From: Paraburkholderia ginsengiterrae
GTDB taxonomy: Bacteria; Pseudomonadota; Gammaproteobacteria; Burkholderiales; Burkholderiaceae
NCBI RefSeq assembly: GCF_001645125.1
Contig: NZ_LXKA01000382.1
Span: 1-64,000 of the forward strand
Length of the DNA stretch: 64,000 nucleotides
Direction: 5' to 3'
Numbering within the stretch: position 1 is the first letter of the stretch; every line of letters starts with the position of its first letter. The notes beneath the pieces are model-generated. The model searched no databases. It saw only the letters and a list, made by a program, of their open reading frames with translations, and had not been told where the DNA came from. Shown piece after piece: positions 20,944-38,644 of this stretch. The translations under genes were made by a program, and so were the position numbers.

Positions 20944-20968
20944 TTCATTGCATACAGTACGCAATGAA
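20944..20968 (+). promoter_or_regulatory. Predicted GntR operator, site B (Rieske operon), near-perfect palindrome
   Basis: A 25-base element with arms TTCATTGC and GCAATGAA around ATACAGTAC. Only one of its twelve base-pair positions is mismatched. The core TGCATACAGTACGCAAT (20949-20965) recurs as sites A and C. It ends about 22 bases before the oxygenase start at 20991 and covers an upstream in-frame ATG (20964), which argues that the ATG is not the real start and that the site lies over the promoter or leader. Confidence 0.7.
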
Positions 20969-20990
20969 CAACGCTCAGGAGCGATCGAAC

Positions 20991-22151: not shown

Positions 22152-22183
22152 TTTCCCGCGAGTCGGGTTGTGAGGCGATGTCA

Positions 22184-23428
22184 ATGAAAACTGAACGCCA
22201 TGACGCACCGATTGTCGTGATCGGTGGTGGACTTACCGGCGTGCATGCCGTCGAATCGTTGCGAAAAGCTGGGTTCGCCGGGCGCATTATTCTTTCAGAC
22301 AAGGAGTCGCGTCTGCCGTACGACCGGCCGCCGTTGTCGAAATCAGTGTTACTCGAAAAGGAGAAGGTTCCCAATATTCAGCTCCGCAATCAGGCCTTCT
22401 ACGAAAATAACAAGGTGGAGTTGAAATTTAGTTGTGGAGCAACGCAGATTGACCGGCAAGCACGGGTCGTGCGGTTCGACGACGGATCAGAACTTCCGTA
22501 CGACCAACTTCTTCTTGCTACGGGCTCCTCGCCGCGCACGCTTCCAATGTTTGCGCCAAGTATGCCCGGTGTTTTCTACCTGCGTAACCTCGATGACTCG
22601 CTAAATTTGCGTGACGCGCTCCGTTCTATCTCTCGTGTTCTTATCGTTGGTGCAGGTGTGATCGGGCTGGAGGTAGCCGCAGCGGCGCGCGAGCTAGGTG
22701 TGGATGTAACGGTTATTGAAGCTGCGGAACGACCAATGCAACGTGCTGCCTGTCGTGTCGTAGCCGATTACATACGCGGTCGTCACGAAGCGATGGGTGT
22801 CGAAATCCTGACCGGCGTCACGATTGCATTCGCGCTTACCCGCGATGGGCAGTGGCACGTAACGTCAACTGACGGACGCGTCATGTCTGGAGACGCGGTT
22901 GTAGTCGGAGTTGGTGTAGCTCCGAATATTGACCTCGCTCAGGCCGCAGGATTGGAAACCTCTCCTCGCGGAATTGAGGTTGACGGGTACGGCCGAACGA
23001 CAGATCCGTTCATTTATGCTGCGGGCGAGGTGGCCTATCACTTTAACACGCGTAGTGGCCAGTATGACCGGCAGGAAAACTGGCACCACGCAGCAGCGCA
23101 CGGAACCCATGTTGGTCGCGCGATGGTCGCGCCCTCGGATCCATACGAGGAAATCTGTGGCTACTGGTCAGACCAATATGATTTTTCTCTTCAATGTTAT
23201 GGCTCATCAATTGGGGAGAGAGACATTCTTCGAGGTGAACCGACTTCGGACAGATTTTGTGTCTTTCATACCGTGGACGGGGTGGTTGCCGGCGTCAGCG
23301 CGATAAATGCCTCGCGCGATCTGCGCATCGGCAAATTACTCGTAAGGACGCGAGCACGAATTCCAGAGTCTGTTCTTTCGGACGCATCCGCAGATCTGAC
23401 AAGCTGGTCTGCCGACTCGGTTCTTTAA
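22184..23428 (+). CDS. FAD-dependent ferredoxin reductase of the Rieske oxygenase
   Basis: A 414-residue NAD(P)H:ferredoxin reductase of the BphA4/ThcD type. The N-terminal FAD motif is IVVIGGGLTGVHAVESLRKA, followed by YDRPPLSKSVL. The NADH-binding motif is VLIVGAGVIGLEVAAAAREL. The second FAD motif ends in FIYAAGEVA, where the usual Asp of GD is Glu. The final domain resembles the reductase C-terminal domain. The ATG at 22184 has GAGG 8 bases upstream, so the earlier in-frame ATGs at 22094 and 22178 are less likely. It should pass electrons to the Rieske ferredoxin at 24890 and then to the CarAa-like oxygenase. Confidence 0.9.
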   Translation: MKTERHDAPIVVIGGGLTGVHAVESLRKAGFAGRIILSDKESRLPYDRPPLSKSVLLEKEKVPNIQLRNQAFYENNKVELKFSCGATQIDRQARVVRFDDGSELPYDQLLLATGSSPRTLPMFAPSMPGVFYLRNLDDSLNLRDALRSISRVLIVGAGVIGLEVAAAARELGVDVTVIEAAERPMQRAACRVVADYIRGRHEAMGVEILTGVTIAFALTRDGQWHVTSTDGRVMSGDAVVVGVGVAPNIDLAQAAGLETSPRGIEVDGYGRTTDPFIYAAGEVAYHFNTRSGQYDRQENWHHAAAHGTHVGRAMVAPSDPYEEICGYWSDQYDFSLQCYGSSIGERDILRGEPTSDRFCVFHTVDGVVAGVSAINASRDLRIGKLLVRTRARIPESVLSDASADLTSWSADSVL

Positions 23429-24889: not shown

Positions 24890-25207
24890 ATGGAAAAGAG
24901 GATTTTCTTGTGTCAGAAGTCAGCTGTGCCAGCCAACGGTGTTGTGCAAGTCTGTCCCGAAGGGCGCAGTGATGGTATCGCGGTCTATGACGTGGAAGGT
25001 AAGTATTACGCTACCGAAGATATGTGTACGCACGGGATGGTGGCACTTTCTGGTGGCGACCTGGAAGGTGCAACGATCTTTTGTCCGCTTCACGGCGGCG
25101 CCTTCGACGTTCGTACCGGTGAAGCGCTGGAAAAGCCGTGCACGATAGCGCTCAAGACATTTCAGATTTTCGAGGAAGGCGACGCACTCTACAGTGCGCT
25201 CGACTGA
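24890..25207 (+). CDS. Rieske-type ferredoxin
   Basis: A 105-residue 2Fe-2S electron carrier. Cluster ligands are in CTHGMVALS (Cys-x-His) and CPLHGGAFD (Cys-x2-His), as in BphA3 and CarAc. The ATG at 24890 follows GGGAGGAAAG at ideal spacing. Upstream in-frame ATGs lie inside the previous gene or on the ribosome site. It should carry electrons from the flavoprotein at 22184 to the CarAa-like oxygenase at 20991, completing a three-component system, though two unrelated genes separate it from the reductase gene. Confidence 0.92.
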   Translation: MEKRIFLCQKSAVPANGVVQVCPEGRSDGIAVYDVEGKYYATEDMCTHGMVALSGGDLEGATIFCPLHGGAFDVRTGEALEKPCTIALKTFQIFEEGDALYSALD

Positions 25208-25256
25208 TGGGCAAAAAACACGCCCCAAGGGGACGGCTAAATTCAAGGTGATCGCG

Positions 25257-26534
25257 ATGTTTAGTAAGGAAGACAACGAAATTCTGTGTCGTGTCGGGCC
25301 TGGAACCCCGATGGGGAAGACCTTCAGAAGCATGTGGATGCCGTTCATGCTGCCAGAAGAGCTTCCTGCGCCTGATTGTCCGCCCGTTCGCGTACGGCTG
25401 CTTGGAGAAGATCTCGTCGCGTTTCGCGATTCAGAGGGAAGAATCGGCTTGCTGGACCGGTACTGTCCGCATCGTCGCGTCGATCTGTTTTTCGGGCGCA
25501 ACGAAGAGTGTGGCCTTCGTTGTGTCTACCACGGCTGGAAATTTGATGTGACTGGCAAAATTGTCGATATGCCAGCGGAGCCCGAGAATACCCAGATGAA
25601 AGAGGACACGCGGATTAAGAGTTATCCCGTGATCGAATGGGGTGGCGTCATCTGGGCATATATGGGCGATCAAGCGACGATGCCTGCGAAGCCTCCGGAA
25701 ATGGAATGGGGGCTTGTCCCGGCGGAGGCTCGGTTTATTACAAAACGTCTGCAGCGTACAAATTATGCGCAGGGCGTGGAAGGCGGAATCGATTCGAGCC
25801 ATGTTGGCATTCTTCATAGTCACCTTGACCCTGAACATCCCGAATTACCATTCCGGCAGCGTCAAATATCGCCTAATCTGGCGATTCCGTACCTGGCGTC
25901 GGACACTGCGCCCCGATTCTTCATTCGACCGACCAACTACGGAATGGCTATTGGCGCGCGACGAAACGCGAGCGATGAGGAATACTATTGGCGCGTCACG
26001 CAGTATCTCGCTCCCTTTTACACAATGATCGCGCCGTTACGGGAGGGGCGAGCATTCATGGGACATGCGTGGACACCAATCGACGACCACAATTGCTGGG
26101 TCTTCACCATGACCTGGAATAGCGATCGTCCGCTTGATGCCGACGAACTGGACCATGGCGCTGTGCATTCAGAGGTAACAGACGACGGCACTTACCGGCC
26201 GCTATTGTCCTCCGAGAACGACTACGGGCTAGACCGCGTCCGCCAAAAGCTGTACAGCTCGACAGGAATCGAGGGTATTGGCATGCAGGACACTGCCATC
26301 CAGGAGAGCATGGGCGCCATCGTGGATCGATCAGTTGAAAATCTCGGTTCGGGCGATGCCGCGATCGCGGGTTTTCGGCGAAGCATCCTCAAGCTCGCAA
26401 AAGAGCGGGAGTCGAGCGCGCGTCTCGAAATTGCCGATAACCCTCAATGGTTTCGCGTTCGATCCACCGCTGCGATTCTTCCGCATGGTACGGATTTTCT
26501 TGAAGGCACTGCTGCTTATACCAAGGTGGATTGA
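25257..26534 (+). CDS. Rieske oxygenase, phenoxybenzoate/phthalate dioxygenase-like (class IA type)
   Basis: A 425-residue terminal oxygenase. Rieske ligands are C70, H72, C89 and H92 (YCPHR ... CVYHGW). The iron site has D179, H182 and H187 (GGIDSSHVGILH). The start (VGPGTPMGKTFRSMWMP) and FFGRNEECGLRCVYHGWK are characteristic of PobA (phenoxybenzoate dioxygenase) and related single-subunit enzymes that work with a PobB-type reductase containing FMN and plant-type 2Fe-2S. No such reductase is in this operon; the nearest candidate is the fused reductase at 32301. The ATG at 25257 follows AAGGTGATCG. Its 3' end overlaps the convergent LysR gene by 19 bases. Diaryl-ether cleavage or demethylation are both possible. 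Confidence 0.88.
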   Translation: MFSKEDNEILCRVGPGTPMGKTFRSMWMPFMLPEELPAPDCPPVRVRLLGEDLVAFRDSEGRIGLLDRYCPHRRVDLFFGRNEECGLRCVYHGWKFDVTGKIVDMPAEPENTQMKEDTRIKSYPVIEWGGVIWAYMGDQATMPAKPPEMEWGLVPAEARFITKRLQRTNYAQGVEGGIDSSHVGILHSHLDPEHPELPFRQRQISPNLAIPYLASDTAPRFFIRPTNYGMAIGARRNASDEEYYWRVTQYLAPFYTMIAPLREGRAFMGHAWTPIDDHNCWVFTMTWNSDRPLDADELDHGAVHSEVTDDGTYRPLLSSENDYGLDRVRQKLYSSTGIEGIGMQDTAIQESMGAIVDRSVENLGSGDAAIAGFRRSILKLAKERESSARLEIADNPQWFRVRSTAAILPHGTDFLEGTAAYTKVD

Positions 26535-27487
26535 CACGACGGCTGCGCGATCAGCGCAGCCTCGTTTAGAATCCACTCGCGCAGGCAGCATACCGCGTGA
26601 TCGTCATTGGTGCTCTCAAGGGTAAAAAGATAATATCCCCCGGCACTAGGTACTTCGGCAGGCAGGGGCGCGAGCAATTCATCGCGCCACTCATAGTTCG
26701 CAAAGATCACCTCAGGTACAAGCGCGATGCCCTTTGAGTCACGGGCTGCCTGCAGAGCCATGAAAAAGTGGCCAAGGTCTAGCGGGTTAGCGTCTTGAGG
26801 GGCGGTGAGACCGTACCATGCCAACCAGTCATGCCAGGCATGACGTCGGCTGGCAGTATTAATCAACCGATACTGCAGTAAGTCCGCTGGCGTCGCGATT
26901 TCTCCCACAGCATCCATAAGCTTGCGGGACACGACGGGGATAAGGGTATCCGGAAAAAGTGGATCAATGTTCAATCCCTTCCAGTTGTCGATCATTGCAA
27001 GGTCAACGCGCGGAGCGCGTCGGTCATAGCGTGCTCCTGGCAGTCGGCCCACCCTGATGGCAACGTCTGTGTCACCGCTATGAAGGTCTGCCGGTTCGAT
27101 AGACGACACAATTCTTACTTCGATACCAGGATGGCATTCCGTGAACCCAGCGAGGCGCGGCATGAGCCAATGGGTCGCCAAAGTGGGCAGGATGTCAAGT
27201 GTAAGTATCCGGTGCGAGTCAAGAACGGTCTGCCGTGTCGCTTGGGAGATGATGGTTAACGCTTGCTGGACCGCCTGGAAATACTCATCGCCGGCTCGCG
27301 TCAGTTCGATCTTACGGGTGAGTCTGATGAAAAGCTTGTGGCCAAGGAAGCTTTCCAGCAGTCGGATCTGTCGCGAAATCGCGCCCTGCGTAAGGTGCAG
27401 TTCATTAGCTGCTTTCGTGAACGACAAGTGGCGTCCCGACGCCTCAAATGCACGGAGAGCGAGCAGTGGGGGAAGACGATAGCTCAT
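26516..27487 (-). CDS. LysR-family regulator (GcvA-like)
   Basis: A 323-residue LysR regulator. The N-terminal HTH (SFTKAANELHLTQGAISRQI) is followed by an effector domain with LTLDILPTLATHWLMPRLAGF, typical of the GcvA/AmpR-like group. The ATG at 27485-27487 is chosen because MSYRLPPLLALRAFEASGRH is the conserved family beginning and GGTGACAG lies upstream; the longer frame from 27724 would add 79 unrelated residues and cover the promoter of the divergent ring-cleavage gene. It is divergent from the LigB-like gene at 27702, with operator site C between them, so both a LysR and a GntR input may act there. Confidence 0.88.
   Translation of the reverse strand: MSYRLPPLLALRAFEASGRHLSFTKAANELHLTQGAISRQIRLLESFLGHKLFIRLTRKIELTRAGDEYFQAVQQALTIISQATRQTVLDSHRILTLDILPTLATHWLMPRLAGFTECHPGIEVRIVSSIEPADLHSGDTDVAIRVGRLPGARYDRRAPRVDLAMIDNWKGLNIDPLFPDTLIPVVSRKLMDAVGEIATPADLLQYRLINTASRRHAWHDWLAWYGLTAPQDANPLDLGHFFMALQAARDSKGIALVPEVIFANYEWRDELLAPLPAEVPSAGGYYLFTLESTNDDHAVCCLREWILNEAALIAQPSCQSTLV
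26541..26566 (+). terminator. Probable terminator of the Rieske operon
   Basis: GGCTGCGC-gatca-GCGCAGCC forms a perfect 8-bp stem and is followed by TCGTTT. It sits 7 bases after the stop of the second Rieske gene and lies inside the 3' coding end of the convergent LysR gene. Confidence 0.6.
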
Positions 27488-27659
27488 TCTGTCACCTTTT
27501 ACCATGTCGCTGGACGCATTACTGGCGCGCATCGTCGCAGCAGGAAAAAATCGTTTGTTGACGAAGCCAGTGGCTCCTACCATCCAACATGGGATGAGTT
27601 GCCGCGCTTGCGGGAGGTTACGGCGCGGCGTCAACGGATTTCCCAGTTGTTGCGTCCAT

Positions 27660-27676
27660 TGTATACGGTACGCAGT
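27660..27676 (+). promoter_or_regulatory. Predicted GntR operator, site C (ring-cleavage gene)
   Basis: TGTATACGGTACGCAGT matches the core of site B at 14 of 17 positions, and the preceding CAT and the following CAT extend the similarity. It ends about 25 bases before the start codon at 27702, a placement close to that of site B. Confidence 0.6.
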
Positions 27677-27701
27677 CATGTCAATATTCGAGGAAGTGCT
27701 A

Positions 27702-28688
27702 ATGGCAAAAATTGTGATGGGCATCGGTTCGTCGCACAGTCCGACCCTTTTAATGACGCCCAGTGGGTGGCTTGCGCGCGCCGCGTCCGACGATCAAAAC
27801 TTCTTTGTGCTGCACGATCGAACCGGGCAACGTGTGACGTACCAGCAACTGCTTGAGTCGGCCGATCCCGCTCTCGCTAGTGAAATCACGCCGGAGAAGC
27901 TTCAGCAGCGGCATGAGCAAAACCAGGCCGCTGTTGAGCGGTTGGCCAGTATCCTCGACGATGCGAAGCCGGACCTGGTCGTTATCATTGGTGATGACCA
28001 TAAAGAGGTATTTCGCGACGATAATATGCCGGCCTTGTCGATCTTTTGGGGGGAAACGCTGCCGTACCGCCCGAGCGGGATCATGAAATGGAAGTACGAT
28101 CCGGCGCTCGATCAGGCGCTCTGGTATCCCCAAGAGGAAAAGGATTATCCGGTCGCTTCCGCTCACGCAGAACGACTCATCCAGGGATTGATGGATGACG
28201 GGTTCGACGTCGCTCAGTCAAAGTATTTTCGCGACGGCCAGGCGATGAGTCATTCGTTTGGCTACGTTTACTACAAGTTGATGACGGGTCCGGCGTACCC
28301 GGCCATTCCGGTAAGTATTAACACCTACTATCCTCCCAATAATGTTTCGCCGTCGCGCGCATTCCAGATCGGTCAGGCAATTCGTCGTCAGATTGAATCG
28401 TGGCCGGAAGATTTGCGGGTTGTCGTAATTTCCACGGGTGGCCTCAGTCACTTTGTCGTGGACGAAGAGTTCGATCGCGATTTCCTTGCGTCACTCGCAA
28501 AAGGTGGCCCCGAAGCCCACGCATCGCTTCCCCTCGTCAAGCTGCAGTCTGGGAATTCCGAATTTCGCTGTTGGTCTGCACTTGCCGGGGCGGTGGACGG
28601 CATGCGCATGGAGCTGATCGACTACATTCCGTGCTATCGCAGTCTGGCTGGAACGGGCTGTGCAATGGCATTTGCGACATGGTCTTGA
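27702..28688 (+). CDS. Class III extradiol ring-cleavage dioxygenase, LigB-like (single chain)
   Basis: A 328-residue LigB-superfamily protein. Candidate iron ligands are His12 in GIGSSHSPT and the acidic/His cluster GDDHKE (His100), with a later STGGLSHFV segment. These enzymes use Fe(II) and O2 to open catechol-type rings next to the hydroxyls. The ATG at 27702 follows AGGAAG; the long upstream frame from 27504 overlaps the divergent LysR start and is rejected. It lacks a LigA partner of its own, unlike the second LigB-type enzyme at 30420. It may open a different intermediate, for example the second ring of a bicyclic substrate. Confidence 0.85.
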   Translation: MAKIVMGIGSSHSPTLLMTPSGWLARAASDDQNFFVLHDRTGQRVTYQQLLESADPALASEITPEKLQQRHEQNQAAVERLASILDDAKPDLVVIIGDDHKEVFRDDNMPALSIFWGETLPYRPSGIMKWKYDPALDQALWYPQEEKDYPVASAHAERLIQGLMDDGFDVAQSKYFRDGQAMSHSFGYVYYKLMTGPAYPAIPVSINTYYPPNNVSPSRAFQIGQAIRRQIESWPEDLRVVVISTGGLSHFVVDEEFDRDFLASLAKGGPEAHASLPLVKLQSGNSEFRCWSALAGAVDGMRMELIDYIPCYRSLAGTGCAMAFATWS

Positions 28689-29301
28689 CGTAGCCAGAGA
28701 CGTTAAGGGGGACTCCAGCGTCTGGTACGAGCATCGCATTTCAGTGACGCGCGTGAGGGTAGCCACCAGCCAAATCGCGCAGGTTTCGGGCCGGTGACAA
28801 GGGCTTTAAGCGGATGGTCTTCAGAAACGCCCGATTTTGCGGAGCAGGTGGGTCATCTCGCGAACGCAACGATAGGGCGATGCTCGCCCGATCGTTTAGC
28901 CAGACGTTCACTGCTTGATGGTTGGGTTCCGGTTTCGCAGTCACACTCTGGTGTTCCACGCTCGGTGAGTCCGTGAGCACCGGTTGTAACCGGTCGCTAC
29001 GGATCGGCATCCAAAGTGTTTGCGATTAGCAACGACGTGATAGTTCGGCGAGCCGCGAATTTGGCATCCCCCGAGCAGCTTCGCTTCGGCATTGCTCGTG
29101 TCGGAAGTGGTCGTGACGTCGCTTCCATCACTTTCATCTGAACGTCATGTCCCGCGACCGTGACGCATGAGTATGCGTGTGCCGGGCACATTACATTAAT
29201 CGTTTGTGACTCGGCACGTAAACACTCAAGAATTCAACATAAACGGAAAACTGGTGTCGTGAATAGTGACTGGCTGATCAACCTATACGGAAATATTCTT
29301 A
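28689..29301. other. Intergenic region between catabolic operons
   Basis: About 610 bases with no convincing gene. Several frames are open for 60-90 codons but lack ribosome sites and family resemblance. The last 100 bases are AT-rich (around 29190-29300) and probably contain the promoter of the aspartate-dehydrogenase-like operon. No copy of the shared GntR operator was found here. Confidence 0.4.
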
Positions 29302-30126
29302 ATGGATAACTTTGAAAATGTTCGTCCCAAGCGAGTAGGTATCGCGGTACTTGGAACGGTAGGTAAGTCGTTGGCGAAAGCGTTGGACCGTGGCATTCCC
29401 GGTGTGGAGCTGGTTGCAGTCGCGGCTCGCAATGAATCCGCTGCGCGCGACTGGCTCTCGGGGCTTAGCTCAAGTCCGAAGATCGCGAGCTTCGAAGAAA
29501 TCGCGGAGACGTGTGATGTTGTTATCGAATGCGCACCGGCACAGTTGCTTCCGCAGATCGCGGAGCCTGCATTGCGTGCCGGCCGTCAGGTCGTTGTACT
29601 GAGCTGTGGCGCATTGCTTGATAATGATCATCTGACAGGTCTTGCAGCGCAGCATGGTGGGCAAATCATGGTGCCGAGCGGTGCGCTGCTCGGGCTCGAT
29701 GCCGTGACAGCTGCAGCCGAGGGAGAGATCAGCTCGGTGCAAATGATCACTCGCAAACCCGTCAGCGGGCTGCTTGGGGCTCCGTATTTGCTCGATCGTG
29801 GTATTTCTCTTGACGGTTGCACCGAGCGCACCCTTGTGTTTTCTGGAACTGCACGCGAGGCGGCTCGAGGATTCCCGGCGAATCTGAACGTCGCGGTCGC
29901 GCTGGCGTTGGCCGGCATTGGGCCGGATCGGACGCAGCTTGAAATCTGGGCCGATCCAGATCTCAAACGTAACACGCACACGATTACGGTCGAGTCCGAT
30001 GCAGCCCGGCTGTCCATGACAATTGAAAATATTCCGACCGAAAATCCGAAGACCGGCCGTATCACCGCCCAAAGTATTCTTGCGCTTCTGCGCAAAATGT
30101 CGACCCCACTCCGGGTGGGTTCCTAG
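29302..30126 (+). CDS. Aspartate dehydrogenase-like protein (DUF108/NadX family)
   Basis: A 274-residue NAD(P)-dependent dehydrogenase. The N-terminal Rossmann motif is GIAVLGTVGKSLAKAL, and the C-terminal domain has NLNVAVALALAGIGPD and a catalytic-His candidate in NTHTITVESD, as in L-aspartate dehydrogenase. That enzyme interconverts L-aspartate with oxaloacetate plus ammonia via an imine. Inside a ring-cleavage operon, directly before the LigA and LigB genes, a role in NAD synthesis is unlikely. I infer action on an amino or imino acid intermediate, or removal of nitrogen from a nitrogenous aromatic. It heads a four-gene operon ending with a meta-cleavage hydrolase. Confidence 0.82.
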   Translation: MDNFENVRPKRVGIAVLGTVGKSLAKALDRGIPGVELVAVAARNESAARDWLSGLSSSPKIASFEEIAETCDVVIECAPAQLLPQIAEPALRAGRQVVVLSCGALLDNDHLTGLAAQHGGQIMVPSGALLGLDAVTAAAEGEISSVQMITRKPVSGLLGAPYLLDRGISLDGCTERTLVFSGTAREAARGFPANLNVAVALALAGIGPDRTQLEIWADPDLKRNTHTITVESDAARLSMTIENIPTENPKTGRITAQSILALLRKMSTPLRVGS

Positions 30127-30138
30127 AAGGGAGACGTG

Positions 30139-30432
30139 ATGACAGAGAACAGGCGCCCACCTGTTGAACTACACAGGCTCATTCATGCACTGATACAGGA
30201 CGGAGAGCTGGTAAAACGCTTTCGCGACACGCCCGATGCAGTTTTCAGTCAGTTTTTCGTACCTCGCGAGCAGGTAGAAATGCTGAAAAGCGATCCGCAA
30301 AGCGCTTTTAGGGAGTTGGGCGTGCATCCGAACCTCCAGTTCAAATACCTCGGGCTGAGCGGTCTTTTAAATCTGAAACCCGCATCAATCCGTCCTTTTC
30401 TTGAGAGAGATGACACGTCATGGGGCAAATAG
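30139..30432 (+). CDS. Extradiol dioxygenase small subunit, LigA-like
   Basis: A 97-residue helical protein of the LigA family, the small subunit that covers the active site of two-subunit class III extradiol dioxygenases (LigAB, CarBa/CarBb). The fit is the N-terminal helices (LHRLIHALIQDGELVKRF) and a C-terminal HPNLQFKYLGLSG. The ATG at 30139 follows AAGGGAG; a GTG directly before it (30136) is an alternative. Its end overlaps the start of the LigB-type catalytic subunit by 13 bases, strongly suggesting coupled synthesis of both subunits. Confidence 0.85.
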   Translation: MTENRRPPVELHRLIHALIQDGELVKRFRDTPDAVFSQFFVPREQVEMLKSDPQSAFRELGVHPNLQFKYLGLSGLLNLKPASIRPFLERDDTSWGK

Positions 30433-31247
30433 TCAGTGCTGCTGCCACATCTCACACCTTCGGTGTCACCGACGATGTCGAGACTCAGGCGCAACGAATC
30501 TTCGACGGCATCAGTGAGATAGGTCGCGCGATCAGGGCGAGCCGTCCGGACGTACTGGTAATCGCCTCGAGCGACCATCTCAACGATTTTTCCCTGGACT
30601 TCCAGATTCCGTTGGCGGTGGGTATTGCCGACCAATGGACACCGTTGGGTGATCTTGGTGTGCCGCGTACCCATTTCACGGGGCATCGCGAATTTGCTAG
30701 CGGTTTGTTGAATTATTGCGCAGACAACGGTTTTGATCTGGCGGGCGTCGAGAACGTACGACTGGATCATGGGATGGCGATGCCGAATGCCATCATCAAC
30801 CTCGACTGTGAGATGCCTATCGTGCCGATATTTATTAACACCGTCATGACGCCGGCACCGTCATGTGCGCGTAGTTACGAACTTGGCCGATGTCTAAATC
30901 GATATGTGAGAGACGTGCGACCTGACGGGGAGAGGGTGGCCGTACTGGGAACCGGAGGGCTGTCACACTGGATTTGCTTGCCGGATTCGGGGCGTGTCAA
31001 TGTCGAGTGGGACGAGGAGGTCATGAACGCGTTCGTCTCCGGTGACTCCGAAAAAATTATCGGACTAACGCGTGACGTAATTCTTAGGGACGGTGGCAAC
31101 GGCGGCCTCGAGATTGCCTCGTGGGCGTTTATGGCTGGTGCATCAGCAAGTAACACCGGCCGGATCATCTACTATGAGGAAATGCGACCATGGTGGACAG
31201 GAATGGGCGGAATCTTGATGAGCGGTCAGACTGACGGGCCAAATTGA
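30420..31247 (+). CDS. Extradiol dioxygenase catalytic subunit, LigB-like (CarBb-type)
   Basis: A 275-residue class III extradiol dioxygenase catalytic subunit. Candidate Fe(II) ligands are His12 (AAATSHTFG), His53 (ASSDHLNDF) and a downstream Glu; GTGGLSHWIC holds the catalytic His region. It pairs with the overlapping LigA gene as in LigAB or CarBaBb, which open protocatechuate or 2'-aminobiphenyl-2,3-diol. The following hydrolase gene fits a product carrying an aryl or acyl side group. Both this and the 27702 enzyme occur in one regulon, so the order of ring openings is not evident. Confidence 0.87.
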   Translation: MGQIVSAAATSHTFGVTDDVETQAQRIFDGISEIGRAIRASRPDVLVIASSDHLNDFSLDFQIPLAVGIADQWTPLGDLGVPRTHFTGHREFASGLLNYCADNGFDLAGVENVRLDHGMAMPNAIINLDCEMPIVPIFINTVMTPAPSCARSYELGRCLNRYVRDVRPDGERVAVLGTGGLSHWICLPDSGRVNVEWDEEVMNAFVSGDSEKIIGLTRDVILRDGGNGGLEIASWAFMAGASASNTGRIIYYEEMRPWWTGMGGILMSGQTDGPN

Positions 31248-31298
31248 TACCCGCGCGCCTGATTACCTTCACCACCTTCAAAATCATTCGGAAAACTT

Positions 31299-32156
31299 AT
31301 GAGCTATCCACAACTACCAACTGACATTCAATCTCTGAGCCGCTTTGTGGATGTCGACGGCATCAAAACCCACTACATCGAGAAGGGGACGGGACGACCA
31401 CTTGTCCTTCTGCATGGAGGCGGTGCGGGTGCCGATGGCTGGGGAAACTGGCGTGGTTGTATCGATGCATACGCGGAACACTTTCGGGTTCTGGTGCCCG
31501 ACATGCCGGGCTTCGGTCGAACGGGCAAGCCATCGCCTGATACTTACGACTACTCCCAGGATGGGCGTAACCGTCACCTCGCCGGATTCCTTGATGCACT
31601 CGAAATCCGTTCAACCAGCTTGATTGGCAATTCCATGGGCGGAGCGACAGCTCTGGGACTCGCTATCAACTCGCCTGAGCGTGTGCAGAAACTCGTGCTG
31701 ATGGGTAGTGCTGGACTTGATATTGCCAATCCAGATCCAACCTACATCAAAAAACTACAGGCCTATGATTTCACGCTCGATGGCATGCAACAAATCATGA
31801 CGACTATGACTGGCTCCAGTCACGTTGTCGATCCGGCGCTCGTGCAATATAGGCACGAAATCATGCAGAATGCTGATGCCCAGGTGGCTATCCGAAGCAT
31901 CGTTCGCTCCAAGCTTGCGTATACCCACGAGCAAATCGCCAGCGTGAGCGCACCAACACTTGTCGTCGGTGGTAAGGAGGACAAAGTCGCTGTCCTCGCG
32001 CGAACCTACGGCTATCTTGAACTCATCAGGCAGGCCTGGGGCATCGTTGTACCAGAAGCTGGCCACTGGGTGATGATCGAGGCTCCAGAAGCATTTGTCC
32101 GCATGACGCTTACTTTCCTCCTCGATTCGGCTTTCGGAGTGATCGTCGACGGCTGA
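31299..32156 (+). CDS. Meta-cleavage product hydrolase, alpha/beta fold (CarC/BphD/MhpC-like)
   Basis: A 285-residue carbon-carbon bond hydrolase. The nucleophile is Ser112 in IGNSMGGAT, the oxyanion loop is LHGGGAGADGWGNW (the GGGxG signature of meta-cleavage hydrolases), and the catalytic His is in EAGHWVMIEAPE. These enzymes split 2-hydroxy-6-oxo-hexadienoates into 2-hydroxypenta-2,4-dienoate, the substrate of the 15598 hydratase, and a carboxylic acid. It closes the operon begun at 29302 and is followed by a perfect hairpin at 32194. Of the two hydrolases in the island this is the better match for the main ring-fission step. Confidence 0.9.
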   Translation: MSYPQLPTDIQSLSRFVDVDGIKTHYIEKGTGRPLVLLHGGGAGADGWGNWRGCIDAYAEHFRVLVPDMPGFGRTGKPSPDTYDYSQDGRNRHLAGFLDALEIRSTSLIGNSMGGATALGLAINSPERVQKLVLMGSAGLDIANPDPTYIKKLQAYDFTLDGMQQIMTTMTGSSHVVDPALVQYRHEIMQNADAQVAIRSIVRSKLAYTHEQIASVSAPTLVVGGKEDKVAVLARTYGYLELIRQAWGIVVPEAGHWVMIEAPEAFVRMTLTFLLDSAFGVIVDG

Positions 32157-32300: not shown

Positions 32301-34040
32301 TCAGCTATCCAAAGGACTTGTGTCTGGCCGTTGCAAATTGCGATACGTGGCCGAAGATGCCGAATCGTCGCGCAGCAGCACGTCCTCGAAGAAGGCGCCG
32401 ATCTCATGGGTCTGGTCGCGGAGCTGGATCTCCAACACCCAAAGTCCGTCAGTCGGAGCAAAGCCTGCTTGCGCGAGCTGGTGCGGACCGTAGAGGGCGT
32501 GCGGGAAATCAGAGATGCGGTGGCCTTCAGCTTCACGCACCAGTTCGCAGCTGTGCGTGCGCGCTAGCGCTTCTGCGTGGGTGTACAGTGCCTCGCCGCT
32601 GATGCCGCGCAGCCAGGCCTCGCGGGTTTCATCAAAAATCGAGCGGACTGCCCTGGCGCATCGCAGCCGGTCGGCATCTTCGCCTAACACGAACGTATCG
32701 GCGTAGTCTCCCTCATAACCGTCCCAAACCGGACCGATGTCGACGAAAAAGATATCGTCGTCGCATAGGAGACGCGCACGATCAGGCTCGCGCACAAGGC
32801 TGGTCGTGTCTGGGCCGAATCGGATATAGGTGGGGTGCCAATTGCGCTCTGCGCCGAGTTCACGCAGGCGCCGGTCAGCGAGTTCGGTAGCCTCGGCCAT
32901 GGTCATCCCAGGGCGCAACTGCGCTGCAATGTCATAAACCGCGTCAATAGAGCGTTCGCGCGCTGCGAGAATTCCTTCGCGCCGAAAACGCGGACCGACG
33001 CGTTCCCACGCCCTCGAGTCCGGCACGTTTTTGCCGCTAGGTACGAATGCGTCGGCATGCCACTGCTCCGAAGGCAGGCCGGCGGCTGTTAGCGCCGCGC
33101 GTGCGTCGCTCACCATACCCGTATTACCGCAGGCATGCACGCGCGTTGTTTGCCAGTTGCCGCCGTCCGCGAGTGCGTAATCTTGTACATGGTGCTGTAA
33201 CGCAGAATCGCGGCCCGCGTAAGCCTTGGTTTTCCTCGGCACTACGGCCGTCCATCTGAAGCGAGGATGGCTCTCAGCGAGGCTGTTGAGTTCGTCGGCA
33301 GCGTAGTGGTCGTCGGTGTGACGACCGCCCCAGTACAACGCAATGCTGTCGTATTGCTCACTGTGCAGCGCTTCCAGCAGCACGGGCCGCACCCCTGCGT
33401 AGCCGGTACCTGTGGCCAGCAGCACGAGGCGGCGAACATGTTCGCGTGAGGGTGCTGGCGGTAGGCCAAAGGGGCCGTCCACTGTCATAGAATCGCCAGC
33501 CGCAAGTTGCCTGAGCAGTACGTCTGAGAATATCCCACCCGGAACGCGGCGGATGTGCAGTTCCAATGGCTCGTGGGTGTTGCGCAGGTTGGCGACCGAG
33601 AAACTGCGGTGCTCCCCGCCCTCCAAGAGGAACTGCAGGTGCTGGCCTGCACGAGTCTCAAAGGACTCGCCGGGTAACGGCGCGACTACAAGCCGCCACA
33701 CATCTGGCGACAGCGGCTCGACCACAACTACTCGCACAGTCCGCCGCGTGGGCGCTGGCGTCGGCACCCAATTTGGTACTTCCAGCGTCAATTGCCCCAA
33801 CGCTCGTGTCTTGCACATCAGCAGCCGGTTCGGTCCAGGCTCGAACTCATCCAGGGCCGGTGGCGCGACCCGCTCGTGCGCCCCCGACAGCACCTCGGCC
33901 ACGCACGAGCCGCAAGCCCCTCGACGGCACGAAAATGGTACGGATACCCCGGCTGCGAGTGCTGCGTCCAAAATCGTGGATTGTCCCTCGCAGGAGAACG
34001 CCGTGCCGTGGGGATGGAAAGTGCAAACGGATGCGGTCAT
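32301..34040 (-). CDS. Fusion of 2Fe-2S/FAD reductase with an M24-type metallohydrolase
   Basis: A 579-residue two-part protein. Residues 1-85 are a plant-type ferredoxin domain with cluster cysteines C38, C43, C46 and C76. Residues about 100-335 are an FAD/NAD(P)H reductase (RSFSVAN at 145-151, GTGYAGVRPVLLEAL near 211-225, CGNTGMV near 304-310), as in oxygenase reductases and CDP-6-deoxyglucoseen reductase. Residues about 345-570 form a pita-bread M24 (creatinase/aminopeptidase P-type) domain with all likely metal ligands: D434, D445, H507, E537 and E552. The frame is continuous with no internal stop or obvious restart, so the fusion appears genuine. The reductase half could feed the PobA-like oxygenase at 25257. 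The hydrolase half would cut an amide or C-N bond. This pairing is unfamiliar to me. Confidence 0.85.
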   Translation of the reverse strand: MTASVCTFHPHGTAFSCEGQSTILDAALAAGVSVPFSCRRGACGSCVAEVLSGAHERVAPPALDEFEPGPNRLLMCKTRALGQLTLEVPNWVPTPAPTRRTVRVVVVEPLSPDVWRLVVAPLPGESFETRAGQHLQFLLEGGEHRSFSVANLRNTHEPLELHIRRVPGGIFSDVLLRQLAAGDSMTVDGPFGLPPAPSREHVRRLVLLATGTGYAGVRPVLLEALHSEQYDSIALYWGGRHTDDHYAADELNSLAESHPRFRWTAVVPRKTKAYAGRDSALQHHVQDYALADGGNWQTTRVHACGNTGMVSDARAALTAAGLPSEQWHADAFVPSGKNVPDSRAWERVGPRFRREGILAARERSIDAVYDIAAQLRPGMTMAEATELADRRLRELGAERNWHPTYIRFGPDTTSLVREPDRARLLCDDDIFFVDIGPVWDGYEGDYADTFVLGEDADRLRCARAVRSIFDETREAWLRGISGEALYTHAEALARTHSCELVREAEGHRISDFPHALYGPHQLAQAGFAPTDGLWVLEIQLRDQTHEIGAFFEDVLLRDDSASSATYRNLQRPDTSPLDS

Positions 34041-34142: not shown

Positions 34143-35174
34143 TCACTGGAGCGAGCCGCGTTGCTGCTGCTCTTTCTCTTGCGACTCGAACAGCGCTTTG
34201 AAATTGCCTTCGCCGAAGCCGTCCTCCCCCCGGCGCTCGATGATCTCGAAAAAGACCGGACCAATCTGGCGCTTCGTAAATCGCTGGAGCAGGAGCTTCT
34301 GGGGACCCTTGCCATCCACCAGGATCCCTCGCTTAGCCAACCGCTCAACGTCGAGGCCATGGTCCGGCAGCCGTGCGTCAATGCCGTCGTAATAGTTCTG
34401 CGACGGTGCGGTCATGAACTCAATGCCAACCGCCTTGAGCTTCTCGATCGTGACTTCGATGTCGGACGTAAGCAACGCAATGTGCTGGATCCCTTCGCCG
34501 CCGTAATCCCGAATGAACTCATCGTTCTGATTGAGTACACCGGGCTGGTCATGAGCGGCCGCAGCTACCGGAATCGAGACGCGTCCGCATGGGCTTACCA
34601 TGGAGCGGGCGCGCATGCCGGACATATGCCCCTTGATTTCCAGATACTGCTTTTCTGCAAATCCGAACGTGTCACGGTAAAAGTCGGCCCAACGATCGAG
34701 ATTTTCGGGGTGAACGATATTGGACGTATGATCGACCGCCATGATATGTGCGTCGCCTACCGCTACTTGCCGGGCTTCGACTGGCAATGAAAAGACTTCG
34801 TGGAAGTCGGTGTCGACGAAGTACACGAGGCTCTCACCAATACCGAGGATCGTTGGTGTATCGATGACAAACATTCCTTCGGTGTCTGGGCTGGCTGTGC
34901 GCGCTCCACCGGAAAGAGCTTGGGCGTGCGCGAGCCGCGCGTCGCTGACGTGGATTCCAATCGCACGCACGGACGCGCCGTGTTTCGACTGGAATGCGCT
35001 TGCGTTGCCGTTGACTATGAATGCGGCCGTGCCTTGCGTCATGAGGTACATTTCGTTCTTCGACTTGCCACGGAGACGAAATCCAAGGCGTTTGAAAAGA
35101 TCGATGAGTTCCGAGGGACGAGGCGAAACGAACTCGACAAATGCAAATCCGTCGGTTTTAACTGGTGTATTCAT
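34143..35174 (-). CDS. hpd: 4-hydroxyphenylpyruvate dioxygenase
   Basis: A 343-residue Fe(II) enzyme that converts 4-hydroxyphenylpyruvate to homogentisate in tyrosine breakdown (EC 1.13.11.27). The three iron ligands are H149 (AVDHTSNIV), H231 (GIQHIALLT) and E310 (PVFFEIIERRG). The typical C-terminal GFGEGNFKALFESQE is present. The length is within the bacterial range. The start is the ATG at 35172-35174; upstream sequence gives only a weak ribosome site. It lies about 100 bases downstream of the hairpin side of no other catabolic partner: homogentisate 1,2-dioxygenase is not in the window, so this may be an extra copy or part of a related 2-oxo-acid oxidation. Confidence 0.93.
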   Translation of the reverse strand: MNTPVKTDGFAFVEFVSPRPSELIDLFKRLGFRLRGKSKNEMYLMTQGTAAFIVNGNASAFQSKHGASVRAIGIHVSDARLAHAQALSGGARTASPDTEGMFVIDTPTILGIGESLVYFVDTDFHEVFSLPVEARQVAVGDAHIMAVDHTSNIVHPENLDRWADFYRDTFGFAEKQYLEIKGHMSGMRARSMVSPCGRVSIPVAAAAHDQPGVLNQNDEFIRDYGGEGIQHIALLTSDIEVTIEKLKAVGIEFMTAPSQNYYDGIDARLPDHGLDVERLAKRGILVDGKGPQKLLLQRFTKRQIGPVFFEIIERRGEDGFGEGNFKALFESQEKEQQQRGSLQ

Positions 35175-35505: not shown

Positions 35506-35919
35506 TCACTTGCGCGTGGCTGCAACCACCTTGATCTCGACGATCAATTCGGGGCGAGCTAGGGAGGCCACTCCGAGAATTGTCCACGCCGGGAAGTCGG
35601 AGCGGATGTATCGTTCCTTCACTTCCCGGAAGGTAGCAAGTTGCGACCCGATGTCGACATGATAGGAAACGAGTTCGACGACGTCTGTGAAGTCGAGATC
35701 CAGGTGTTGCAGGACCGCTTCGATTCGCCGGAAGGCGACTTCAATCTGTTCCTTGGAATCCTCGGGTATCGATCCGTCGGCACGCAGGCCAATCTGGCCG
35801 GCGACAAAGACCAGTCCATTTGCAGTTACTGCTGGTGAGTATTGGAAAAGATCAAAAATGCGATTGCTTCCGAAAGTTGCGTCATCTTCCGGAAGGCGCA
35901 AGCGCTCGATTTTGCTCAT
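35506..35919 (-). CDS. Rid-family protein (YjgF/YER057c/UK114 superfamily), non-RidA type
   Basis: A 137-residue protein with the Rid fold: SPAVTANGLVFVAGQIGLRADG, FRRIEAVLQHLDLDFTDVV and a final ARPELIVEIKVVAA. RidA proteins hydrolyse reactive enamines and imines to oxo acids and ammonia using an Arg in a PxR(S/T) motif. Here the corresponding stretch is FPAWTILGV, so that Arg is replaced by Trp. It is therefore probably one of the other Rid groups, often found in catabolic operons for aromatic or amino compounds, where ring-opening or imine hydrolysis steps occur. It stands alone between hpd and the Crp/Fnr gene, all on the same strand. Confidence 0.85.
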   Translation of the reverse strand: MSKIERLRLPEDDATFGSNRIFDLFQYSPAVTANGLVFVAGQIGLRADGSIPEDSKEQIEVAFRRIEAVLQHLDLDFTDVVELVSYHVDIGSQLATFREVKERYIRSDFPAWTILGVASLARPELIVEIKVVAATRK

Positions 35920-36020: not shown

Positions 36021-36734
36021 TCACCCTAGAAGTTTTGACGGATCGATAACCCAGATGCGGCGCTTCCGGATCTCGATTGCTCCGACTGTTGTCAGCCGTT
36101 TCAACGCGCGTGTAACCGTGACTCGGGTCGCACCTGTCATCGCCGCGATTTGCTCGTGGGTCAAGGTCATAGCTATAAGCGTGCCGTGTACGTGCTTTTC
36201 GCCATACAGTTCGGTCAGCCGTCCCAGCAGCTCGCCTATTCTCATTTCCGGCTTCGGAAGAGCCAGATACTGGATTCGAGATGCCAGGACGCGCTGCTTG
36301 AGCGCGACAATTCGCATTAACGAGATGGCGAGTTCAGGGCGAGACGAGATCGTTTCAATGATTACCCTGATATCAAATTCAACTACCTCGGAATCTTCGA
36401 CTGCGATAGCCGTGGCGATGCGGGGGTAGCCGTCCATCGCCGGACTTTCACCGAACATGGCCCAAGGGCCCATTACCTCGAGAATGAACTCCGCGCCGTC
36501 ACTCTGGAAAATCGAGACCTGGATACGGCCCGCAAGCAGAAAATAGAAAGTAGATCCGAACTCGCCTTGACGATAAATCATGGCGCCCTTGGCGAACTTC
36601 ATTCTCCGGCCGAGATGGGCGGCACGGATCCACGCACCTGCGGTGGCGTCGTCCATATGCCATGTCTCGGTATTCGGCACGGTGCTCTTGCCCAAACCTT
36701 TCTCCATTCTGCTGTGTGGGGCCGGTATGGACAT
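36021..36734 (-). CDS. Crp/Fnr-family transcriptional regulator
   Basis: A protein of about 237 residues. The cyclic-nucleotide-type beta-roll (KFAKGAMIYRQGEFGSTFYF, then GPWAMFGESPAMDG) is followed by a long dimer helix and a winged HTH (LTHEQIAAMTGATRVTVTRA). There is no Fnr cysteine set, so oxygen sensing by 4Fe-4S is unlikely, and key cAMP contacts are not clear. Starts at 36734 or 36707 are both possible; the frame runs further upstream to 36866, but that part lacks family character. It is upstream of the Rid and hpd genes on the same strand and may regulate them. The IS21 remnant begins about 120 bases beyond its start. Confidence 0.83.
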   Translation of the reverse strand: MSIPAPHSRMEKGLGKSTVPNTETWHMDDATAGAWIRAAHLGRRMKFAKGAMIYRQGEFGSTFYFLLAGRIQVSIFQSDGAEFILEVMGPWAMFGESPAMDGYPRIATAIAVEDSEVVEFDIRVIIETISSRPELAISLMRIVALKQRVLASRIQYLALPKPEMRIGELLGRLTELYGEKHVHGTLIAMTLTHEQIAAMTGATRVTVTRALKRLTTVGAIEIRKRRIWVIDPSKLLG

Positions 36735-36849
36735 TGTGTCACGGGAGCGAGGCCATCTGAGCGTTGCGTAGGGTGGTAAGGGTGTACAGACATTGCAATG
36801 GCAAGACATCGAGGAGATGGAACGTGTCGTGTGCCATGCAACTTGCGCA

Positions 36850-37790
36850 TTCATCGCACGCAGCATCCGGACCTATGACGATCTTCAGGGCGAGGAGGTA
36901 GCGGCATGAGCACACCCGCTTACGATCCCGGCCGACTGGCCCTGATGCTCAATGAACTGCGCCTGCCGACCATCGCCCGCCTGTGGCCTGAATTCGCCCA
37001 GCGTTCCGACAAGGAAGGCTGGCAGGCAACTCGACTGCTGGGTGTACTGCTTGAGCACGAACTGGCCGAGCGCGCCAAGCGGCGCATAGAGCGACACCGC
37101 GCCGAGTCGCATCTCGATCCGACCAAGACACTGGCTACCTTCGACTTCGGCATGGTGCCGATGGTCTCCAAAGCTCACTTGATGGCACTGGCGACCGGCG
37201 ATTCATGGCTCGAGAAAGGCGCCACAGTGCTCCTGTTCGGCCCACCAGGAGTCGGCAAGAGTCATCTTGGGGCGGCCATCGGACACGCGCTGATCGACGC
37301 CGGTTACCGGGTGCTGTTCACGCGGACCAGTGAGATTGTGCAGAAGCTGTGGGCCGCACGTCAGAGCCTGCAATTGCCTTCAGCGCTCGCCAAGCTCGAC
37401 CGCTTCGACATGGTCATCCTGGACGACCTGTCGTACGCCCGAAAGGACCAGACCGAAACGAGCGTGTTGTTCGAGCTGATCGCCGAACGATACGAGCGCC
37501 GCAGTCTTCTGATAACCGCCAACCAGCCGTTCTCGGGCTGGAATGACGTGTTTCCAGATCCCGGCATGACCGTCGCTGCGATCGACCGGCTCGTCCATCA
37601 CTCGACGATCTTCGAAATGAACGTCGAAAGCTACCGCCGTCGTACGGCCAGCGACAAACAAACCAACCGGCGCCGACAATCACAGGGAAGGAGCGACAAC
37701 CATGACCGAATAACCACCGACAATCACCCCGGTCGACCGGCCAAAATAATTGACGGTAAGCCGGCCATGCTGCTTGACGCTATCTAGAGA
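36850..37790 (+). mobile_element. IS21-family element remnant (istA tail plus istB)
   Basis: Only the last dozen or so codons of the transposase gene istA remain (RTYDDLQGEEVAA then TGA at 36907-36909, overlapping the istB start in ATGA). They are followed by a complete istB. The left end and nearly all of istA are missing, and no terminal inverted repeats could be identified, so the element is immobile alone. It lies between the Crp/Fnr promoter region and the AbiEi/Xre remnants. Confidence 0.75.
36906..37787 (+). CDS. istB: IS21-family helper ATPase IstB
   Basis: A 293-residue AAA+ ATPase that loads the IS21 transposase on DNA. The Walker A motif is LLFGPPGVGKSHLGAA (near residue 110-125), and Walker B is FDMVILDDLSYA. 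The sensor region is LITANQPFSGW. Typical IstB proteins are about 250-260 residues; this one has a divergent extension of about 35 residues (from about TASDKQTNRR onward, ending DGKPAMLLDAI), probably read-through of the element's end after a frame change. Without istA it cannot transpose its own element, but it could act on related IS21 copies elsewhere. Confidence 0.92.
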   Translation: MSTPAYDPGRLALMLNELRLPTIARLWPEFAQRSDKEGWQATRLLGVLLEHELAERAKRRIERHRAESHLDPTKTLATFDFGMVPMVSKAHLMALATGDSWLEKGATVLLFGPPGVGKSHLGAAIGHALIDAGYRVLFTRTSEIVQKLWAARQSLQLPSALAKLDRFDMVILDDLSYARKDQTETSVLFELIAERYERRSLLITANQPFSGWNDVFPDPGMTVAAIDRLVHHSTIFEMNVESYRRRTASDKQTNRRRQSQGRSDNHDRITTDNHPGRPAKIIDGKPAMLLDAI

Positions 37791-37885
37791 AGCTTGCTAT
37801 CGCGCTGGGTGTCGGAGTCGCTGATTTCTTTGAGTCGCCGTCACGGTTTCAACGTAAGTCGCCTCCCGTCCTTTTCCTTGATTGA
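37778..37885 (+). pseudogene. Xre-type HTH regulator C-terminal remnant
   Basis: Directly past istB a different plus frame reads RYLEKLAIALGVGVADFFES, the typical end of a Cro/C1-type helix-turn-helix domain (LERIAQALGVSLADFF-like), then a short tail ending PVLFLD and TGA at 37883-37885. The frame has a stop at 37775-37777, and the N-terminal HTH is missing. The remnant overlaps the 3' end of the convergent AbiEi gene by about 45 bases. It looks like half of a regulator or antitoxin gene removed by the IS21 event. Confidence 0.55.
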
Positions 37886-38644
37886 CCAGCGTTTTCCCTG
37901 ACTCAGGCGATTTACGTATTTCTGAAGATCTTCCCCCCAAGGGTAACCGCTGCTTTGGCCTAAATCGCGTACTAGCTTCACGACTTTTACGCGGACGCAA
38001 TTTTCCAGCAAGGGGCTGAGAATATCAATGCGCACGTTACGCAACATGTCCGCCAGATGTGCCGCTTCGTCCAGTGATTGCCCTTTTCTGCCTCTCTTCC
38101 CTATATCGCTCGCAAGTTCTAACAGGGCAAGTTCTGGGACCGAAACCAACACGTGCGCGCTTTTGGATGGCAACGGTCGCAGCCATTGAATCACCGAATA
38201 TTGATCGTCAAACAACTGCGTTGTCTGAAACGTGTAGGGCATGTGCTGCTCAATCCAAGTGGGAAAGCGATAGGATTTCGATCCCCACAGCGTGATCCTG
38301 GGTCTGAAGGCAACGTTGTGCCGGACGCCCTGCCAGTCAAGCGCTGTTTTGCCTCCAACGTGCAGTCCGGGAATCCTCCTGCTCAGGTAGGTGATGATCC
38401 CTTCTACAGAAGCAACATCCCCAGCGACTAGATATGCTCCTTTCGACAAGCGTTGGAGCCACCCCGCGTTAACCAGGTAGGTGGTTTGGGCCGGGTTTAT
38501 CTCTAAGCTCCGCAACATCGCTGGATCAAGTGGTTGTCCGCGCGGCGCGTCTTTTATCAGGCGCTGGATTTTTCGATCACTCAAGGTTACCTCATGAGCG
38601 TAGTTTAAAAGATCAAAATTAGCTTTAATTTGAAGTTGGAGCAA
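37841..38644 (-). CDS. Type IV toxin-antitoxin AbiEi-family antitoxin, apparently orphan
   Basis: A 267-residue protein of the AbiEi antitoxin/transcriptional regulator family. It has an N-terminal winged helix (NPAQTTYLVNAGWLQRLSKG then AYLVAGD) and a C-terminal antitoxin domain (HVGGKTALDWQGVRHNV, later VPELALLELASDIGKRG). In intact systems the nucleotidyltransferase toxin AbiEii is encoded immediately downstream and overlapping. Here the downstream side holds only an Xre remnant and an IS21 remnant, and no nucleotidyltransferase motif (GGS...D.D) is visible, so the toxin seems lost. The ATG at 38644 is in an AT-rich stretch. The gene may persist as a repressor or as an anti-addiction element. 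Confidence 0.8.
   Translation of the reverse strand: MLQLQIKANFDLLNYAHEVTLSDRKIQRLIKDAPRGQPLDPAMLRSLEINPAQTTYLVNAGWLQRLSKGAYLVAGDVASVEGIITYLSRRIPGLHVGGKTALDWQGVRHNVAFRPRITLWGSKSYRFPTWIEQHMPYTFQTTQLFDDQYSVIQWLRPLPSKSAHVLVSVPELALLELASDIGKRGRKGQSLDEAAHLADMLRNVRIDILSPLLENCVRVKVVKLVRDLGQSSGYPWGEDLQKYVNRLSQGKRWSIKEKDGRRLTLKP

Follow-up and report, generated by a model that had tools for sequence, protein, structure and literature searches.

The window analysed here, a stretch of 64,000 nucleotides from the Paraburkholderia ginsengiterrae contig NZ_LXKA01000382.1, carries on its minus strand a gene of 579 amino acids (32301..34040, ATG at 34040, no internal stop) in which an oxidoreductase is joined to a pita-bread metallohydrolase fold. 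Pfam analysis placed a plant-type [2Fe-2S] domain (Fer2) at residues 11–80 (33801..34010, minus), containing the cysteines C38, C43, C46 and C76, followed on the same strand by an FAD-binding domain (FAD_binding_6, residues 103–192, 33465..33734) and an NAD-binding domain (NAD_binding_1, residues 207–314, 33099..33422). The M24 domain, also on the minus strand, extends over about residues 345–557 (32370..33008) as judged by alignment with unfused relatives, with the Pfam Peptidase_M24 match covering residues 357–510. All four domains scored above the curated Pfam cut-offs, Peptidase_M24 (PF00557) with 71.2 bits against a cut-off of 23 (E = 1.4e-19). A sequence-only reading of this DNA had earlier described a single continuous frame over the reductase and the M24 half, giving no strand, and the open minus-strand frame bears this out. 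Its residue numbers for the four Fe-S cysteines and the five M24 metal ligands (D434, D445, H507, E537 and E552) were likewise all correct, and these nine residues, like W401, H402, R508 and H514, do not vary among 51 aligned fused proteins, the window protein and 50 of the 72 homologues with a clean single frame.

The reductase half is homologous to the P450 reductase 5ogx over fusion residues 12–335, whereas its scores against the NCBIfam profiles for BenC (121 bits, cut-off 430) and MmoC (127.4 bits, cut-off 500) remained below the cut-offs. The closest solved or curated reductases of this domain type are 5ogx, the benzoate dioxygenase reductase, MmoC and BenC, all of which serve oxygenases. 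The fusion shares with BenC, MmoC and 5ogx the Fer2-FAD-NAD order and the four cluster cysteines, but differs from BenC and MmoC both in falling far below their curated cut-offs and in carrying an M24 domain. Profile matches of the M24 half in the PDB were to Xaa-Pro and methionine aminopeptidases and to prolidases, with modest scores (best 9.5e-10).

The five metal ligands of the M24 half, the same as those of methionine aminopeptidase (MetAP), aminopeptidase P (APP) and prolidase, were invariant in a 16-row alignment as well, and a second histidine, H514, follows H507 at seven residues, the spacing seen in MetAP. The W401-H402 pair, located upstream in the M24 half and invariant in both the 51-row and the 16-row alignments, is specific to the family, and the GHGIG motif of M24 peptidases is replaced by GHRxx. 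Unlike M24 peptidases, the fusion family is fused to or located beside an electron donor, and it lacks a histidine at the H79/H243-type place, which we take to be that of the catalytic histidine in the CHGIP/LHY/PHG loop (H79 of E. coli MetAP, H243 of APP). This residue was absent from all 13 family rows in an alignment with other M24 proteins of the window genome, and a motif check found it in none of 72 fused and 20 unfused sequences; in six fused sequences and one unfused sequence a histidine does occur within the next 20 residues, but not at a constant position. It is present in five of six other M24 proteins of the window genome, a partial seventh (L169) having been left out of the alignment, and the sixth control (L168, G000:C350:206979-207725) is a divergent M24 protein that also lacks it and bears AHRV and EPH motifs. 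As the ligands are kept while the histidine at the catalytic position is missing, the sequences indicate that the dinuclear site is retained and the peptidase machinery altered. The metals of M24 proteins usually serve non-redox roles.

A 4-hydroxyphenylpyruvate-dioxygenase (HPPD)-like gene (34143..35174, minus; TIGR01263, 280.6 bits against a cut-off of 277) lies 102 bp upstream of the fusion on the same strand and is possibly co-transcribed with it; further HPPD-like matches were found in the window genome at 63%, 43% and lower. Farther upstream, Pfam identified genes for a RidA-type protein (Ribonuc_L-PSP, 35506..35919, minus) and a Crp-type regulator (36021..36866, minus), beyond which lie genes for an IS21-type IstB helper (36906-37787) and an AbiEi-type antitoxin (37841-38644); a DDE transposase gene is situated at 58-1314. 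The GC content is 63.8% in positions 33001-34000 as against 54–57% in the seven kilobases before 32000, a contrast that hints at a separate acquisition of the fusion, yet the window from 40 kb on also has 56–63%. Two stretches on the other side of the fusion (16473-19247 and 25194-32156) hold aromatic-breakdown genes, namely those for an acetaldehyde dehydrogenase, a DmpG-type aldolase, a LigXa-like Rieske enzyme and two LigB-type dioxygenases, as well as an aspartate dehydrogenase and an HsaD/BphD-like hydrolase. A gene for a Rieske homotrimeric ring hydroxylase (20964-22151) is overlapped at its end by a gene for a BphA4-type ferredoxin reductase (Reductase_C, 22094-23428), which is on the same strand as both Rieske genes, with 1.8 kb between its end and the other one (25194-26534). 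Given this reductase gene beside them, the suggestion that the reductase half of the fusion might supply a PobA-like oxygenase devoid of a reductase in its operon loses much of its force, and feeding the Rieske enzymes of the window was set aside as the main role of the fusion.

When GTDB species genomes were scanned with six exact patterns of 8 residues, of which four lie within the reductase half, 78 loci were hit. Of these, 77 match both halves, and the remaining one, L103, matches the M24 half alone. With patterns placed mostly in the reductase half, the scan is biased towards close relatives that are fused, and the numbers of loci are minimum values. The frame check passed 72 of the 77 fused loci as clean and flagged five, but four of the flagged stops, at residues 553–584, are the normal protein end, hence 76 of 77 loci are single frames. 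The sole exception is the copy of Variovorax sp. E3 (L099), which shifts frame within the M24 half. The fusion is thus no sequencing error: a stop and restart hidden by such an error, which the sequence-only reading had named as a refutation together with homologues that always occur as two separate genes, is ruled out, the second possibility is contradicted by the same 76 loci, and we rejected both a sequencing artefact and a pair of genes as explanations. The remark in that reading that such proteins are not normally fused is true in general, but this particular fusion is a recurring architecture. That the fusion is peculiar to this genome was likewise rejected on the 77 loci with both halves.

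By record title the 77 fused loci carry seven genus names, with 54 from Pseudomonas, 14 from Achromobacter, 4 from Variovorax and 2 from Roseateles, and one each from Comamonas, Herbaspirillum and Pantoea; in the M24 tree the Pantoea row groups among those of Pseudomonas. The closest relatives of the window protein were from Roseateles noduli and Comamonas sp. JUb58 (57–59% identity). Within the genus of the window the fusion was seen, among 145 genomes, only in the window's own. A frame longer than 555 aa at the M24 match was found there and in one other of these genomes (G016), whose locus (L120) gave no reductase match. Across the phylum, 17 of 398 genomes matched the M24 profile, three of them, the window genome included, in a frame longer than 555 aa.

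Trees were quick searches with SH-aLRT supports, in which long branches, including those of the window, L116 and L124, were flagged. The M24 tree drew on 73 of 111 rows, and in it all 40 fused rows and L103 formed one clade (support 98). L103 is a second, M24-only match in Pseudomonas sp. K2I15, 51% identical to the window protein and placed near the fused copy of its own genome. The sister clade of the fused M24 proteins (support 97) comprised six unfused M24 genes from the genus and family of the window.

A survey of the genus identified 15 genomes besides that of the window with an M24 protein of the sister type (E up to 1e-94, the next match being 3e-88), five of which were placed by the M24 tree and ten assigned by this gap in score. 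In six of these (L106, L116, L201, L204, L206 and L208) a reductase gene of the FAD-NAD-Fer2 type directly precedes the M24 gene on the same strand; Pfam analysis of three of the six reductases put Fer2 last, and the other three were matched by BLAST at 33–43%. In two more (L121 and L200) the gene directly after M24 encodes a flavoprotein of the pyridine-nucleotide type, in both cases with a rubredoxin-binding domain recognized by Pfam. In the remaining seven, four of which carry two alpha/beta hydrolases, BLAST found no match to the reductase queries adjoining the M24 gene. The same kinds of query revealed no directly adjacent reductase at 15 same-genus loci of an outer M24 clade, these being the loci with fetched surroundings out of 47 further genomes and second copies in 4 of the 15, and other unfused M24 genes had mixed neighbours. 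A reductase next door in 8 of 15 sister-type genomes versus 0 of 15 outer-clade loci gives a one-sided Fisher p of 0.001 when relatedness is ignored. Fer2 leads in the fusion but stands at the end of all three split reductases examined, so that the pairing appears to have arisen more than once. As no reductase was found adjoining the M24 gene in 7 of 15 sister-type genomes or at any of the 15 outer-clade loci, the M24 activity may not need one.

A MocR regulator with GntR and aminotransferase domains is encoded divergently beside the fusion in 75 of the 77 fused loci, at a median of 79 bp from the matched stretch; two of these 75 matches end about 890 bp from the fusion, and in the two loci without MocR the fusion lies less than 500 bp from a contig end. 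MocR is also found near five of the six split pairs with an FAD-NAD-Fer2-type reductase. The window copy is an exception, having no MocR beside it: no MocR-like place was found on the contig of the window, and 19 were found elsewhere in its genome, the four best at 36–41%. A tree of 26 MocR rows, which took in 13 of the 75 fused loci with MocR, resolved two lineages, one with seven fused rows (Pseudomonas and the Pantoea record) and three split rows (support 97), the other with six fused rows (Roseateles, Comamonas, Variovorax, Achromobacter and Herbaspirillum) and two split rows (support 100). To judge by these gene arrangements, MocR accompanies the reductase–M24 pair whether fused or split and whichever the domain order of the reductase, and nothing else speaks as strongly for a joint action of reductase and M24 as this tracking of both forms. 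Among the flanking genes, called by a greedy longest-ORF script and then clustered, only MocR recurs in over 20 of the 77 fused loci. Two clusters, M20-peptidase-like and PLD-like, reached 20 loci, both in Pseudomonas. No oxygenase was among the common neighbours that were annotated, namely these two and the MotA/ExbB-like and alpha/beta-hydrolase proteins, as distinct from clusters 4 and 5, which span 18 and 16 loci, and from rarer ones.

Three of the 15 sister-type clusters contain in addition a class-I glutamine amidotransferase (GATase) gene. At L206 the genes for an amino-acid permease, the reductase, the M24 protein and the GATase lie on one strand with MocR divergent, and L201 and L106 have the same gene set in another order plus an amidase. 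A second match to the cluster GATase (E 1e-30) was obtained in exactly three of the 145 genomes, each time within these clusters. The fetched flanks of the 77 fused loci gave no match to either GATase query, and the one GATase match of the window genome is on another contig.

These clusters recall the dnf genes of Dirammox, in which DnfR is a MocR regulator, DnfA an AurF-type diiron oxygenase, DnfB an NADH-dependent 2Fe-2S reductase and DnfC a glutamine amidotransferase (PMC9478400, PMC9136411). Among the seven dnf genes described in PMC9136411 are those for a transaminase, a hydroxymethyltransferase and a pyridoxal kinase, but none for a permease. A proposed scheme, still disputed, has DnfAB hydroxylating the glutamine amide and DnfC releasing hydroxylamine (PMC11440038, PMC11160463). 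In common with dnf as it appears in these accounts, the M24 clusters have MocR and an NADH-linked Fer2 reductase, and three of the 15 sister-type clusters have a GATase that belongs, like that of dnf, to PF00117. They differ in having M24 as the terminal component where dnf has AurF and, on the same published description, in showing no PLP-related genes and yet carrying a permease; the fusion moreover puts Fer2 first, and in the window it has neither MocR nor a GATase beside it. The window genome gave no match to the AurF-type diiron oxygenase family (PF11583) at E 1e-20 or 1e-15. A dnf-like cluster in a genome of the same order (L270, G1103) comprises genes for MocR, AurF, a Fer2-bearing reductase, an alanine-racemase-like protein, a GATase and a pyridoxal-kinase-like protein. 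Its reductase shows 23% identity to that of L206 (E 0.05), and in a GATase tree two of the M24-cluster GATases grouped with the dnf one (support 96, with long branches and an arbitrary root), while housekeeping copies were the nearest group of the third; identities were 47–56% throughout. With reductases so little alike and GATase kinship mixed, a simple swap by descent from dnf was rejected; by analogy, the M24 clusters would bear a partial likeness of design to dnf, with M24 in the place of the oxygenase.

We propose that the fusion is a self-sufficient M24 redox enzyme which is fed by NADH, probably requires O2 and acts on an amine or amide, a tentative assignment to which we give somewhat less than an even chance. 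NADH would reduce the FAD in the reductase half, from which electrons would pass to the [2Fe-2S] cluster and on to the dinuclear M24 metal site on the same chain; this site, here no hydrolase, would oxidise a small amine- or amide-bearing substrate, with O2 as the probable oxidant, nitrogen as the probable point of attack and iron as the likely metal. A pairing of redox type is supported by the occurrence of the same M24 lineage beside three kinds of reductase, fused as well as split, under two MocR lineages. Every redox reading is countered by the failure to find a reductase next to 7 of 15 sister-type and 15 of 15 outer-clade M24 genes, and by the non-redox roles that M24 metals usually have. 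In a more specific form, drawn by analogy with dnf, the pita-bread fold would have turned into a dinuclear-iron N-oxygenase with its own NADH reductase, doing the job of DnfA on an amide or amine in a hidden hydroxylamine- or hydroxamate-forming pathway; we consider this doubtful, if a serious possibility. We know of no pita-bread oxygenase, and among the papers listed by searches of the open-licence literature none described one or a Fer2-FAD-NAD-M24 fusion.

The sequence-only reading had instead tied an oxidation to C-N or amide hydrolysis on one substrate. C-N or amide chemistry remains sensible in view of the MocR, amidase, GATase and permease genes near some unfused relatives, whereas ordinary hydrolysis of the creatinase/aminopeptidase-P kind is weakened by the missing H79-type histidine, although the metal ligands that are kept would be compatible with hydrolysis. 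On such a view the M24 half would cleave C-N or amide linkages hydrolytically, the electrons of the reductase half would go to a different oxygenase that attacks the same compound, and fusion would keep the stoichiometry or channel the product. We regard this as unlikely, since no gene besides MocR occurs in more than 20 of the fused loci, the annotated common neighbours are not oxygenases, the histidine is missing throughout and the Rieske genes of the window already have a BphA4-type reductase beside them; the dimetal ligands and H514, however, are kept, and amidase, alpha/beta-hydrolase and GATase genes do adjoin some relatives. MocR-regulated M24 hydrolases also exist: DoeA/EutD of ectoine breakdown, a genuine hydrolase, serves the catabolism of a nitrogen compound under the MocR regulator EnuR and without a reductase.

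The evidence for electron transfer that underlies the redox-enzyme proposal is shared by an O2-free reduction at the M24 metals, for example of a hydroxamate, N-oxide or oxime, which would remove an oxidised-nitrogen compound. A single regulated gene with no conserved pathway around it suits such a detoxification, but the closest solved and curated reductases (5ogx, the benzoate dioxygenase reductase, MmoC and BenC) serve oxygenases, and we find it rather improbable. Invariance of the five ligands and of W401, H402, R508 and H514 over 51 rows would be needless if the M24 half had lost all catalysis and served for binding or docking, so as to deliver a substrate or a partner to what is otherwise a normal oxygenase reductase; this we judge rather improbable, even with the catalytic-position histidine missing and with M24 pseudo-enzymes such as LmaPA2G4/Ebp1 on record (PMC3888471). 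That two neighbouring operon genes of unrelated activity were fused passively or by chance is at odds with an M24 lineage that recurs with three reductase kinds, split and fused, under two MocR lineages, and we consider it highly improbable, common as fusions of neighbouring genes are in general.

Annotated relatives of the two halves are named 'M24 family metallopeptidase' or '2Fe-2S/FAD-binding oxidoreductase', and the recurrence of the reductase–M24 pairing argues that such peptidase and oxidoreductase names miss the function. P450-reductase fusions combine an NAD(P)H reductase and a terminal metal site on one chain as self-sufficient oxygenases. The fusion fits among these reductase-plus-terminal-component systems, with the difference that a dinuclear pita-bread site would take the place of the heme, and would form a category of its own if M24 activates O2. 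Should the M24 site accept electrons, a redox enzyme would have arisen from a fold known for hydrolysis, a turn comparable to that of hydrolases to redox enzymes among HD-domain proteins. If nitrogen is oxidised, there would be a new enzyme for heterotrophic organic-nitrogen oxidation, a process still poorly understood, and if the N-oxygenase version were true, peptidase and reductase annotations would conceal a pathway in Pseudomonas, Achromobacter and the genus of the window. The redox idea is made testable by a single soluble-looking protein of about 60 kDa.

In a plasmid search with the whole fusion protein, the match reached 80% of the query length in none of the 489 records returned, and among seven plasmid M24 regions inspected three were without an annotated feature and the others had mixed neighbours. 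At L207 an HPPD-like gene (39%) is also close to an unfused M24 gene. At two outer-clade loci (L109 and L119), rubredoxin and rubredoxin-reductase genes lie about 1.3 kb from the M24 gene, with a LysR gene between. DJ-1/AraC (GATase1-like) regulators, of a type known from amine catabolism, were observed near or beside the sister-type M24 genes of L108, L121, L124, L149, L200 and L203.
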